Of a stretch of 35,349 bases of DNA, positions 27,906 through 31,588 are shown piece after piece (the first letter of the stretch is position 1; the number at the start of each line of letters is the position of its first letter). The notes below the pieces were generated by a model. The model ran no database searches. It was not told the DNA's origin and saw only the letters and a list, made by a program, of their open reading frames with translations. The translations under genes were made by a program, and so were the position numbers. Origin of the DNA: an uncultured beta proteobacterium (GTDB lineage: Bacteria > Pseudomonadota > Gammaproteobacteria > Burkholderiales > Burkholderiaceae_C); assembly GCA_903905735.1 (NCBI GenBank), contig CAIVHU010000002.1:1-35349 (forward strand), written 5' to 3'.

Positions 27906-28478
27906 ATGCCTGAGTGGGTCAGCCCAATGACACCATCGATCAACGTGCTGCGACTGACGCCCCAGTCGGCTACTCAGTACCGCGAGCTGATGCTTGAAGC
28001 CTACACACTTCATCCCGAAGCCTTTACCTCCAGCGCTGCAGAGCGTGCGGCATTGCCATTGACCTGGTGGGAAACCCGGCTTCAGACGACAAACGGGCCG
28101 GGCGACGTGATTTTTGGCGCATGGGATGGCGAGACCCTGGTTGGCGTAGTTGGCCTGTCCCTTGAAAGTCGGGCAAAGGCGCGCCACAAGGTGACTTTGA
28201 TGGGTATGTACGTCAAAGAGCACTGCCGCGGGTGTGGACTGGGCAGCCTCCTGGTCACGACCGCACTGCAGTTTCTTGACACCCGGCCCGACGTCAACGT
28301 GGTTCAACTCACGGTGACGCAGGGGAACACCGCCGCACAAGCTTTGTACGAACGTTTCGGTTTTGTCCAGTTTGGCATTGAGCCGATGGCTGTGGCCGTG
28401 GCGGGCGGCTATGTTGCCAAGGTGCACATGTGGCGAACGACAGGCTCGGCCGCATCAACCGGGCAAACAGGTCTCTGA
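27906..28478 (+). CDS. GNAT-family N-acetyltransferase
   Basis: 190 residues. The acetyl-CoA binding motif is visible: VTLMGMYVKEHCRGCGLGSLL (R-x-x-G-x-G). It is preceded by FGAWDGETLVGVVGLSLE and followed by QLTVTQGNTAAQALYERFGF, the typical strand and C-terminal motif of GNATs. Substrate unknown. Fifteen bp after ruvA, so possibly co-transcribed with it. ATG at 27927 (MTPSINVLRL) is an alternative start. Confidence 0.85.
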   Translation: MPEWVSPMTPSINVLRLTPQSATQYRELMLEAYTLHPEAFTSSAAERAALPLTWWETRLQTTNGPGDVIFGAWDGETLVGVVGLSLESRAKARHKVTLMGMYVKEHCRGCGLGSLLVTTALQFLDTRPDVNVVQLTVTQGNTAAQALYERFGFVQFGIEPMAVAVAGGYVAKVHMWRTTGSAASTGQTGL

Positions 28479-28560
28479 ATTGACGAGCACATTCGCGCTC
28501 ACCCCGAGCTGTAGCAGCGTTATATTGGGGTTTGAAACGCTCACCTCGAAAGCGCTCCTT

Positions 28561-28839
28561 ATGGCGATGCTTTACCGCGATTTTGAATTCCAGGCGTACC
28601 TCACTGCCATGTGCGTGCAAACACCTTGGGTCCAGGACGACGATTTGCCCAACGATCCGTTGGCTGTTGCCGTGCTGGTCCGTGGCATGGATGACATGGT
28701 GCCACGTCGTTACAGCGACCTGCAGCGGCAGATCCAGCTGGAGCAAGCAGACCCTTTCACCGGCATTCACGGCTTTGAGACATCGGACGGCGCTTTAAGT
28801 CAATGGCTGGCGGGCCAGCTCTGCAAACCCTCCATCTGA
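28561..28839 (+). CDS. small uncharacterised protein preceding the B12 operon
   Basis: 92 residues (MAMLYRDFEFQAYLTAMC, then MDDMVPRRYSDLQRQIQLEQ). I do not recognise the family. It has no signal peptide or membrane helix and two cysteines. The middle is acidic (QDDDLPNDP). The frame is open further upstream, but that part overlaps the GNAT gene and reads as noise. No strong ribosome site is visible; Met69 of the longer frame (28567) is an alternative start. It lies 34 bp before the ABM gene and could be the first gene of that operon. Confidence 0.5.
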   Translation: MAMLYRDFEFQAYLTAMCVQTPWVQDDDLPNDPLAVAVLVRGMDDMVPRRYSDLQRQIQLEQADPFTGIHGFETSDGALSQWLAGQLCKPSI

Positions 28840-28873
28840 CCCCTGTCCGCCCCTTGAAACCCTCGGAACTGGC

Positions 28874-29179
28874 ATGCAAACATTTGTGGTCATCAGCAAG
28901 TTCACCATCGCCAACGGGCTTGACGATGCGGTGCATGCCGCTTTTTGCCAACGCCCGCATAGGGTGGACAGTGCGCCCGGCTTTCTGGGCATGGAAGTGA
29001 TGCACCCGGTGGGCAAAACCGCCGACGTCTGGCTGGTGACGCGCTGGGTGGATGAGTCCAGCTACCAGAACTGGCATCGCAGCCACGAGTACCATGCTTC
29101 CCACACGGGCATTCCCAAAGGGCTGAAGCTGGTGCGTGGCAGTACCGAGATTCAATCCTTTCATGTATTTGCGAACTGA
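28874..29179 (+). CDS. ABM-domain monooxygenase, IsdG/HmoB-like
   Basis: 101 residues, a single antibiotic-biosynthesis-monooxygenase (dimeric ferredoxin-like) domain. The block SYQNWHRSHEYHASH places Trp67 and His77 at exactly the spacing of two catalytic residues of IsdG heme-degrading monooxygenases. The third residue, an N-terminal Asn, is not at its usual position (Ile7/Ser8 here). The C-terminal GIPKGLKL segment resembles heme-binding ABM proteins. It may therefore bind or degrade heme or another tetrapyrrole, but other ABM activities remain possible. It is followed after 13 bp by the cobalamin-binding sensor gene. Confidence 0.7.
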   Translation: MQTFVVISKFTIANGLDDAVHAAFCQRPHRVDSAPGFLGMEVMHPVGKTADVWLVTRWVDESSYQNWHRSHEYHASHTGIPKGLKLVRGSTEIQSFHVFAN

Positions 29180-29192
29180 GGATGAGGCAAAA

Positions 29193-30281
29193 ATGTTGGA
29201 CGCAACACTCAAGACACTCGATGCTGCGGGCTTGCAGCAATTTTTTGCTGTGCGCGGCGATGTCATCCAGACGGTGACTGAGCGTTTTTATGCCACCCAC
29301 GGCTCGGCCTACGCCCGTTTTGGCCCCGGTGGCCGCCAGGCCTGCCAGGAAGATTTGAGCTTTCACCTGGAGTTTTTGCGCCCGGTGCTCGAATTCGGCT
29401 TGTTGCAGCCGATGGTGGACTACCTGATCTGGCTGGACTCGGTGCTGGTGGCGCGCGCCATTCCCTCGGAACATCTGGCGCTGTCGCTGGACTGGTTGGG
29501 GGAAGCATTCAAGCAGACCATGGACGTGGGTCCGGGGGCCGTCGTGGTGCAGTCGCTCGCCGCGGCCAGGGACGGTTTTTTGCAGGCTGGTAAATCGTCC
29601 GCACCTGTGCCATTGCCGCAAGCGGTTTGGCCACAGGCCCAGGCGTTTGAAGCCGCCCTGTTGCGTGGTGACCGGCTTGAGGCCCTGGCGGTGATGAACC
29701 GTGCCATGGACGGCGGCCACAATCTGGTAGAGGTGGAAATGCACTTGATCCAGCCCGCGCTCTACCAGATTGGTGAAAAGTGGCAGGCCAACCAGATCTC
29801 GGTGGCGCAGGAGCACATGGCCACCGCCATCGTGCAGATGGTCATGCCGATGGGGCTGCTGCGCTCGCCACCGCCCGCTCAGATTGGCAAAAGCGTGATC
29901 CTGGCCTGTGTGCAGGGCAACCAGCACGCCGTGGGCCTGGCGATGGTGTCGGATGCGTTTTCGCTGGCGGGCTGGCAGGTGCAGTACCTGGGGGCAGACG
30001 TGCCTACCCGGGCGCTGGTGGCGCAAATTGTGGATGCCAGACCCGATCTGGTGGGGTTGTCGGTATCTTTCCCGCAGCAGTTGCGCGTGGTCAAGGAGGT
30101 GATTGGCGAGTTGCAGGAAAAGCTAGGTCCTGGCAGGCCCGCCGTGATGATCGGTGGGCTGGCCGTGAACCGATTTAGCCGCCTGTCCGAGGTGCTGGGC
30201 GCGGATGCCAGCGGTGTCAACGCCCAGGCCGCTGTGATGCGTGCCAGTCAGATGGCTGCACCCGGCGCGGGTCAGCTATGA
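29193..30281 (+). CDS. cobalamin-binding sensor protein with W-x9-EH photoreceptor motif
   Basis: 362 residues. Residues 1-135 form a helical N-terminal domain I cannot assign (RFYATHGSAYARFGPGG, then DLSFHLEFLRPVLEFG). Residues about 145-225 are a B12-binding four-helix cap containing KWQANQISVAQEHMAT: Trp197, nine residues, Glu207-His208. This W-x9-EH arrangement is the signature of CarH-type adenosylcobalamin light sensors. Residues about 232-350 are the Rossmann B12-binding domain with QGNQHAVGL, where His245 is the lower axial ligand (N-x-H-x-x-G instead of D-x-H-x-x-G), and VMIGGLAVNR. There is no DNA-binding domain and no methyltransferase domain. The start at 29193 has GAGGCAAAA upstream. 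The stop overlaps the kinase ATG (ATGA), so the kinase is the likely output. Confidence 0.82.
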   Translation: MLDATLKTLDAAGLQQFFAVRGDVIQTVTERFYATHGSAYARFGPGGRQACQEDLSFHLEFLRPVLEFGLLQPMVDYLIWLDSVLVARAIPSEHLALSLDWLGEAFKQTMDVGPGAVVVQSLAAARDGFLQAGKSSAPVPLPQAVWPQAQAFEAALLRGDRLEALAVMNRAMDGGHNLVEVEMHLIQPALYQIGEKWQANQISVAQEHMATAIVQMVMPMGLLRSPPPAQIGKSVILACVQGNQHAVGLAMVSDAFSLAGWQVQYLGADVPTRALVAQIVDARPDLVGLSVSFPQQLRVVKEVIGELQEKLGPGRPAVMIGGLAVNRFSRLSEVLGADASGVNAQAAVMRASQMAAPGAGQL

Positions 30282-31588
30282 AGGACTTTTTGCTAGAGCT
30301 CTCACCCCTGCTCGGGGTCGTAACGGCCAGCGTGAGCGAATCCGGGGTGTTGAAGCAAGCCAATGCCGGGTTTTTGCGCTTGATTGACGATGCAGAGCCG
30401 GTGTTGGGCAGCACCCAGGTGGCGCGCTATTTCATCCAGCCCGACTTTGCCAGCCTGCTCAAGCGGGTCGCCGATGAGACCGATGAGATTTACACCGGCC
30501 TGCTGACCCTGGGTGACTACGCGGGCAAGACCCGCACGCTCAAGGCCCGCGTCTGGCGTGCCGATGCGCAGTTGCACCTGCTGGCTGAATTTGACATTGC
30601 CGAACTGGAGCATGTGACCGACACGGTGCTGGAGCTCAACCGCAGCTACGCGCAGGTGCAGCAGGAGCTGGCCCAGACCAATTTCAAGCTCAAGCAGAGT
30701 GCTGCCGCGCTGCAACAGTCCAACGCCGAATTGAAAGCCACAAACACCCGACTGGCGCTGGCCCAAAGCCAGTTGCTACAGTCTGAAAAGCTTGCCTCCA
30801 TCGGCTTGCTTGCGGCCGGCGTGGCGCATGAAATCAACAACCCCATCGGTTTTGTCAACGCCAATTTCAGCACGCTCAAAACCTATGTGGGGCATTGTCT
30901 GGAGATCATCGCTGCCTATGAAGTGGCCGAACACTTTGTGGGCAAGGAGCCGATCAAGTGGAACACCCTGGCGGTGCTCAAGAAGCGCATGGATTGGTCC
31001 TACATCAAGGAAGACATCCTGCCGTTGCTCGATGAGTCGCAAGAGGGGCTAGACCGTGTGAAGCGCATCGTGCGCTCGCTCAACGACTTTGCCCGCACCG
31101 ACACCATAGATATCTGGCGGGGTGAGGACATTCACCAGGGCATTGAGAGCACGCTCGGTGTGTTCTGGAGCCAGATCGGGAGCCGCTGCGAGTTGCGTAA
31201 AGAGTACGGTGACTTGCCGGCTGTGGAATGCGTGCTGTCCAAGCTCAATCAGGTGTTTTTGAACCTGCTGCAAAACGCCGCTCAGGCGATTGAAGGCCAG
31301 GGCGTGATCACCATCCGCACCGGCCGCCGGGGCGACGAGGTGTGGGTGGAGGTGGCGGACAACGGCCAAGGCATCGCGGCACAAGATTTGCCGCATATTT
31401 TTGACCCGTTTTTCACCACCAAACCGGTGGGCAAGGGCACCGGGCTGGGTCTGTCAGTGTCCTATGGCATCGTCAGCCAGCACCACGGCCGCTTCGAGGT
31501 CAAAAGCGAACCGGGGCGTGGTGCCACCTTTCGGGTCTGGCTACCCGTCTCGCAGCCTACTGCGCATTGCGAATCGGACGGCCATTGA
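30278..31588 (+). CDS. soluble PAS-domain histidine kinase paired with the B12 sensor
   Basis: 436 residues, no membrane helix. N-terminal PAS-like domain (about 8-108). A coiled coil about 112-172 ([17 protein letters not shown]) is followed by HisKA with [15 protein letters not shown] (His184, the HEINNP class). N box [15 protein letters not shown]1 VADNGQGI, F box [15 protein letters not shown] and G2 [10 protein letters not shown] are intact, so it should be catalytically active. Start codon overlaps the stop of the cobalamin-binding gene by 4 bp. No response regulator is encoded alongside. The 3' end overlaps the convergent carbonic anhydrase gene by 32 bp. Confidence 0.9.

Follow-up and report, generated by a model that had tools for sequence, protein, structure and literature searches.

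In the window analysed here, a stretch of 35,349 nucleotides from an uncultured beta proteobacterium (contig CAIVHU010000002.1), the genes for a cobalamin-binding protein and a soluble histidine kinase overlap. The locus raises the question of what the first protein senses and how the signal could reach the second. A preliminary description of this DNA had proposed a B12-dependent, possibly light-sensing pair of CarH-type sensor and kinase. Following analysis of the sequence and its relatives, the sensor was assigned to the photocobilins, and probably detects light by means of adenosylcobalamin (AdoCbl) and a bilin, signalling in trans to the kinase encoded by the overlapping gene, whose PAS/helix front end would receive the signal.

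Locus, gene order and source genome

The following features were located, all on the forward strand.

28874..29179, +: ABM-family gene (PF03992), 101 amino acids; Pfam, 3.9e-13
29193..30281, +: predicted photocobilin-type sensor, 362 amino acids; Pfam, homolog alignments and AlphaFold model (pLDDT 93.7, pTM 0.90)
29193..29597, +: putative photoglobin domain, sensor residues 1-135, five helices, with Cys51, Asp54, His58, Tyr77 and Trp80; profile A4 against the PDB, and conservation
29631..30260, +: CarH-like cobalamin-binding domain (helix bundle and Rossmann fold; W197, E207, H208, H245)
30278..31588, +: soluble histidine kinase, 436 amino acids, its ATG overlapping the sensor stop
30278..30715, +: PAS-like domain and start of the signalling helix, kinase residues 1-146; blastp matches to partners at E<=1e-3
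30827..30829, +: His184, likely phospho-acceptor (H-E-I-N-N-P box); sequence and HisKA match over residues 176-202
31238..31552, +: HATPase_c catalytic domain, kinase residues 321-425; Pfam, 5.1e-28

The sensor reading frame runs from an ATG at 29193 to a TGA at 30281. Starting instead from a GTG at 29136, in the same frame, would lengthen the protein by 19 residues; the ATG was favoured because homolog P0001 (362 amino acids) and the 25 rows of alignment A1 start near it. Sensor and kinase genes share four nucleotides, ATGA, read directly in the DNA, and the overlap of stop and start given in the preliminary description was thereby confirmed. Its two-gene unit was incomplete, since the ABM gene, which ends 13 nucleotides before the sensor start on the same strand, had been missed. 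Further upstream lie ruvA, an acetyltransferase gene and a small open reading frame (ORF), and downstream a carbonic anhydrase gene on the opposite strand and ruvB. The small ORF (28363-28839, +) gave no Pfam match and ends 34 nucleotides short of the ABM gene; a portion of it is similar to longer ORFs located 5′ of ABM in the related loci L039 and L040, and elsewhere in L041. Positions 28301-29200 contained no TGT-N12-ACA site, a PpsR motif, and the sensor had no match in PHROGs.

The source genome (G000, approximately 5.26 Mb, 99.97% complete) contains photosynthetic reaction-centre genes, which makes a phototrophic lifestyle likely, and encodes a cobalamin adenosyltransferase. Two more B12-binding proteins (G000:C72:32446-32766 and 65466-65801) are encoded on the contig that also carries, at 41.7-43.4 kb, the reaction-centre genes, and are candidates for AerR- or LitR-like regulators.

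Cobalamin-binding domain of the sensor

Pfam families B12-binding_2 and B12-binding both scored above their cut-offs in the sensor. Among 7998 candidates scored, 728 proteins matched it at E <= 1e-3, 120 of which were listed; alignment A1 was built from 25 of these 120. A further alignment (A3, 78 rows) combined the window protein, 19 listed proteins and 58 of the 80 loci described below. Trp197-x9-Glu207-His208 and His245, pointed out in the preliminary description, are invariant in A3 (78/78 rows). That description had held that homologs keeping neither W197/E207/H208 nor the gene pairing would speak against it; the residues are kept throughout and the pairing recurs in relatives. The published signature of light-responsive B12 proteins comprises GxxW, EH, GxxH and GxxxP, and exemplars picked by it proved light-responsive (PMC11796333). 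It is complete in the sensor (G194-W197, E207-H208, G242-H245, G267-P271), with G242 missing in 9 of the 78 rows.

The residue following W197 is Gln in 73/78 rows, where CarH has His; Gln is likewise reported for the standalone photocobilin SasPcob (PMC11796333, PMC10979010). An E/DxH motif, found in both characterised photocobilins, is descriptive and does not define the class in the account consulted (PMC10979010); the sensor has N243-x-H245 instead, and this position is N in 59, E in 12 and D in 6 of the 78 rows. Using phmmer against the PDB, photocobilins ranked first, the cobalamin domain matching them better than CarH. The NCBIfam CarH score was 61.2 bits against a cut-off of 400. No MerR-type domain was found in the Pfam scan of the sensor, in line with the DNA-binding domain earlier described as lacking.

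N-terminal domain of the sensor

No Pfam family exceeded its cut-off over residues 1-135, which the preliminary description had left as an unassigned helical domain. The sensor itself gave a faint match to the globin of 8j2y, as the second match in phmmer. A profile of 49 N-terminal domains (A4) matched 8j2w (4.4e-10), 8j2x (4.9e-10) and 8j2y (3.8e-8), in each case on the C-terminal globin, followed by allophycocyanins and phycocyanins from 1.4e-5. On this evidence the domain is assigned as a photoglobin, the type of globin with which photocobilins bind a bilin. The assignment comes from the sequence profile, the VIA-align structure list being occupied by the B12 domain. The AlphaFold model has five helices here, at high confidence, the number described for the photocobilin globin (PMC10979010). 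B12-binding and photoglobin domains thus occur within one protein and, given the N-terminal photoglobin, the sensor is classed by sequence as a photocobilin-type protein with permuted domains, photoglobin first and B12 second.

Asp54 is kept in 75/78 rows and Trp80 in all 78. These residues align with SasPcob chain positions 264 and 290, and H245 with position 102 (counted by hand). Published SasPcob numbers, Asp270 and Trp296 for the biliverdin contacts (PMC10979010) and His108 for the lower ligand, are each 6 above the chain positions, so that D54, W80 and H245 correspond to Asp270, Trp296 and His108. Cys51, kept in 60 of the 78 rows, is paired in the alignment with the Cys within CLRD of allophycocyanin alpha. 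The corresponding Cys is reported to carry the chromophore in phycobiliproteins, and as a CXQD motif is already described for photoglobins (both PMC10151467), a Cys at position 51 is not new by itself. Cys was found in 30/37 rows with an adjacent ABM gene and in 11/22 without, the 22 including two loci with short upstream sequence.

Histidine kinase

HATPase_c was found above the Pfam cut-off (98.2 bits) and HisKA slightly under it (25.2 against 26.9 bits). The kinase has no transmembrane stretch by hydropathy (highest 19-residue Kyte-Doolittle mean 1.23), and the membrane-free kinase of the preliminary description therefore stands. Its PAS domain has to be reworded as PAS-like: Pfam gave no PAS match in the window kinase, the AlphaFold model has PAS-like secondary structure in the N-terminal domain, and sub-threshold PAS_4 matches were obtained in homologs. 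A search of the surrounding genes with a single receiver domain gave no response regulator adjoining the kinase. Residues 1-146 are likely to be the receiver of the sensor signal, judging from the distribution of this front end in relatives.

Partner genes in related loci

A scan of 84,980 species genomes yielded 301 relatives, the best 80 loci of which were kept. A separate search found a full-length sensor homolog in 5 of 99 other genomes (G002, G010, G023, G037 and G055; G100 duplicates G023 and G102 duplicates G010, with identical places). Among the 80 loci, 79 have a same-strand candidate partner gene downstream by a mechanical rule, under which some short frames are likely spurious. The four-nucleotide overlap of sensor and partner was counted in 29 of these 79, an approximate figure as the scripted choice of partners and starts also takes spurious short frames. 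For alignment A6, the window and 64 loci were used, and 16 loci were dropped as cut, short or without clear partner. Pfam analysis of these 65 partners gave HATPase_c in 36, including that of the window, GGDEF in 28, a receiver domain in 6, EAL in 2 and ABM in 2. The pairing whose recurrence the preliminary description had suggested checking is thus found in relatives; its sensor-kinase combination fits the 36 and misses the GGDEF partners of the same sensor family.

Kinase residues 1-146 matched the partner in 56 of the best 80 loci (blastp, E<=1e-3); of these partners 21 had a kinase core, 27 had GGDEF and 8 were cut or unclassed. The other 24 loci lacked a front-end match or a testable partner. 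Partners in the deeper part of the tree have no match to the window front end, and the receiver model covers 56/80 loci. As an example, the partner in L049 is 56% identical over the front end and ends in GGDEF. At least three different kinase cores were distinguished by eye in alignment A2. For a quick tree of 71 rows, 11 of the 80 loci were dropped (broken or partial frames) and L012 and the window were added; output type changes nine times along it, at least three of these changes being forced by starred branches. A front end that is kept while the output is swapped is the pattern expected of a receiver domain with exchangeable outputs. This pattern is the main support for signalling in trans, and suggests direct contact between sensor and partner.

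One Propionivibrio metagenome-assembled genome carries two sensor-kinase pairs (L048 and L050) with different kinase cores, one with an upstream ABM gene and one without. The pair also occurs, without ABM and 50-52% identical, in Candidatus Symbiobacter mobilis (L012, G037:C1:2825143-2826210), the motile partner of the phototactic consortium Chlorochromatium aggregatum. The consulted part of its genome paper gives bacteriophytochromes as photosensors and names cobalamin for metabolism only (PMC4053972). The L012 pair is possibly an extra light sensor of this consortium.

ABM companion gene and biliverdin supply

The best PDB match of the ABM protein was MhuD, at about 1e-8, and the ABM profile matched TT1380, HmoB, MhuD, IsdI and IsdG. 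In NCBIfam, HmuQ and heme oxygenase models scored best, each of them well short of its cut-off. At the positions of the IsdG-type Asn-Trp-His triad the window protein has Ser8, Trp67 and His77, kept in 45/49, 48/49 and 47/49 ABM rows, respectively (some partial; 42 of the 49 form alignment A7). Since the triad Asn is described as required in all characterised family members (PMC5557675), the protein, with Ser in its place, was not classed as a heme oxygenase.

Of the 75 loci that could be tested among the best 80 of 301 relatives, 46 have an ABM gene immediately upstream of the sensor, with -16 to +193 nucleotides between the last ABM codon and the point where the sensor match begins. In two Nitrospirales loci (L102 and L114) ABM instead forms the N-terminal part of the kinase encoded downstream, and in the remaining 27/75 none was found. 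Loci L043, L055, L080, L091 and L093 have too little upstream sequence and were omitted from the count. Judging by database labels, the carriers presumably span Alpha-, Beta- and Gammaproteobacteria, Mariprofundus, Nitrospirota, Gemmatimonadota, Bacteroidota, Acidobacteriota, Planctomycetota, Verrucomicrobiota and Myxococcota. Of the 99 other genomes, 3 contain a member of the window ABM subfamily (>=59% identity), always beside the sensor; of the other two genomes with a sensor, G037 has no ABM and the contig of G002 ends there. In five further genomes the match was partial (G061, 51% over 57 amino acids) or weak (33% identity or less). A role of the ABM protein in handling heme or a bilin for the sensor is likely, an interpretation weaker than that of the sensor itself.

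Searching the source genome with PF01126 gave no heme oxygenase. A wider profile built from homologs (A8) detects one at G000:C133:75630-76166, and the notion that this genome has none was rejected; some heme oxygenases of the window genus can thus escape PF01126. This gene lies approximately 1 kb from a phytochrome domain (region about 75630-77683). PF10615, another heme-degrading family, is absent from the source genome and present in 3/50 genomes. With A8, heme oxygenase was found in 7/26 genomes with an adjacent ABM gene and in 14/23 without (Fisher p 0.022); when strong matches only were counted, the former became 5/26 (p 0.004). These figures supersede PF01126 counts of 18/50 genomes, 4/26 with adjacent ABM and 14/24 without, the last becoming 14/23 once L093, with its cut upstream stretch, is left out. 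Phylogenetically independent pairs (PF01126 counts) gave the expected direction, not significant (median p 0.25), and the source genome, which has ABM and heme oxygenase together, goes against the trend. No heme oxygenase gene found by PF01126 lies within the sensor loci. Among six window-genus genomes with a full-length sensor (G000, G002, G010, G023, G037 and G055), heme oxygenase is present in all except G055, so biliverdin is mostly available. Given the reaction-centre genes, the cobalamin adenosyltransferase and the heme oxygenase, light, AdoCbl and biliverdin are plausibly available in the source organism.

Proposed mechanism and alternatives

Protein families, motifs, gene order, conservation and output swapping were observed directly; from these we infer cofactor binding, a light response, protein contact and a switch, as follows. 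AdoCbl would be held in the dark between W197, E207/H208 and the lower ligand H245, at the interface of a head-to-tail dimer, and green light would break the Co-C bond. A bilin held by Asp54 and Trp80, possibly tethered by Cys51, would add a red-light response as in SasPcob. The changed state of the sensor would alter its contact with the kinase N-terminal domain and, with it, autophosphorylation at His184. By analogy with SasPcob and AbDPcob, the dark AdoCbl form may hold the partner in one state, which photolysis would change. SasPcob with AdoCbl only acts opposite to the form also holding biliverdin (PMC10979010), so the direction in which light would switch the kinase cannot be predicted.

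The sensor could instead be a photoreceptor for green light only, its photoglobin having lost bilin binding and serving as a structural or protein-contact module. Such a role is suggested for AbDPcob; AbPcob retains the fold yet binds biliverdin weakly (PMC10979010), and Cys51 is not universal. We consider this unlikely here: the biliverdin-contact Asp, which is His in AbPcob, and the Trp are conserved as given above, and biliverdin is mostly available in the window genus. A sensor of cobalamin or redox status, reporting AdoCbl level or oxygen with light as an incidental effect, would also fit the signature, which binds AdoCbl regardless of use, and the homologs labelled Paenibacillus, Adhaeribacter and Accumulibacter, which are not known as phototrophs. 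As the W-x9-EH cage and the photoglobin are typical of light-responsive proteins, and exemplars found by the signature respond to light, this seems quite improbable. That the protein is an ordinary corrinoid methyltransferase subunit beside an unrelated kinase is hardly credible, despite its fold, NCBIfam matches to MtbC/MtgC and homologs named MtbC1 in some sources: those matches are all under curated cut-offs, no methyltransferase was found by Pfam among ten neighbouring ORFs scanned, and such subunits are not known to have a photoglobin or W-x9-EH.

A further proposal, compatible with the photocobilin reading, concerns ABM as a dedicated chromophore maker, converting heme to a bilin for the photoglobin in IsdG fashion and replacing heme oxygenase. 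It draws on the upstream position and the two fusions, on the heme-degrading enzymes among the closest solved relatives and on the lower frequency of heme oxygenase beside ABM. It is doubtful in view of Ser8 at the triad Asn, the non-significant independent-pairs test and the co-occurrence of both genes in the source genome. Bolder and improbable is a three-gene, two-colour cassette spread across phyla, in which ABM would make or load a special bilin, Cys51 would tether it covalently beside AdoCbl, and the photocobilin would switch a PAS-helix receiver with kinase or c-di-GMP outputs. If true, this would be the first B12/bilin photoreceptor signalling by phosphorylation and the first photoreceptor operon with its own IsdG-fold bilin protein.

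On the photocobilin reading, the locus suggests a partner, the kinase, whose first 146 residues are a candidate for docking, and adds ABM as a companion gene. What standalone photocobilins act on, and where their bilin originates, could thus be tested with three small soluble proteins. A receiver whose outputs can be exchanged would be of interest to optogenetics.

Comparison with known systems

Photocobilins were described as a class in 2022-2024. The naming paper characterises two members and regards the role of the standalone one as less clear. It reports a more than 10-fold rise in activity upon illumination for the one fused to a diguanylate cyclase, and finds that photocobilins also alter, in trans, how active a separate diguanylate cyclase domain is; the word kinase is absent from its main text (PMC10979010). 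Literature searches returned no paper on ABM with B12-binding and histidine kinase, nor on heme-degrading monooxygenase with photoreceptor and bilin, and on adenosylcobalamin light sensor kinases one paper, on HbpS-SenS-SenR. In the parts consulted of the photocobilin and photoglobin literature (PMC10979010, PMC11796333, PMC10151467) there is no description of the pairing with a kinase, of a receiver shared between swapped outputs or of ABM as a companion.

The CarH-type comparison of the preliminary description remains valid for the B12 photoreceptor signature; with a photoglobin present, the closest systems are SasPcob and AbDPcob. SasPcob (8J2W/8J2X) resembles the sensor in its CarH-like B12 domain with W, EH, lower His and Gln after the Trp, in its photoglobin with Asp270/Trp296 equivalents, and in being standalone and able to act on a partner in trans. 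It differs in its C-terminal photoglobin, which is N-terminal here, both orders occurring among relatives (PMC10979010), and in having Thr (aligned chain) in place of Cys51 and E/DxH in place of NxH; the window sensor furthermore has an overlapping-gene kinase as partner and an upstream ABM gene. AbDPcob (8J2Y) likewise controls a signalling enzyme, and many homologs of the window sensor are paired with GGDEF, whereas AbDPcob is fused to GGDEF in one chain, has the opposite domain order and His at the biliverdin-contact Asp, and has lost most biliverdin binding (PMC10979010).

Unlike CarH and LitR, the sensor has no MerR DNA-binding domain and no H132 equivalent, and has a photoglobin and a partner kinase. 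The photoglobin family, reportedly defined by Schneider et al. 2022 (CSBJ 20:261), is alike in containing globin-B12 fusions. ABM belongs to the same sequence family as IsdG, MhuD and HmoB and keeps W67 and, ten residues on, H77, differing in the Ser at the catalytic Asn. By its architecture the sensor class is known; what appears to be new at this locus is the front end common to kinase and GGDEF partners, together with the ABM companion.
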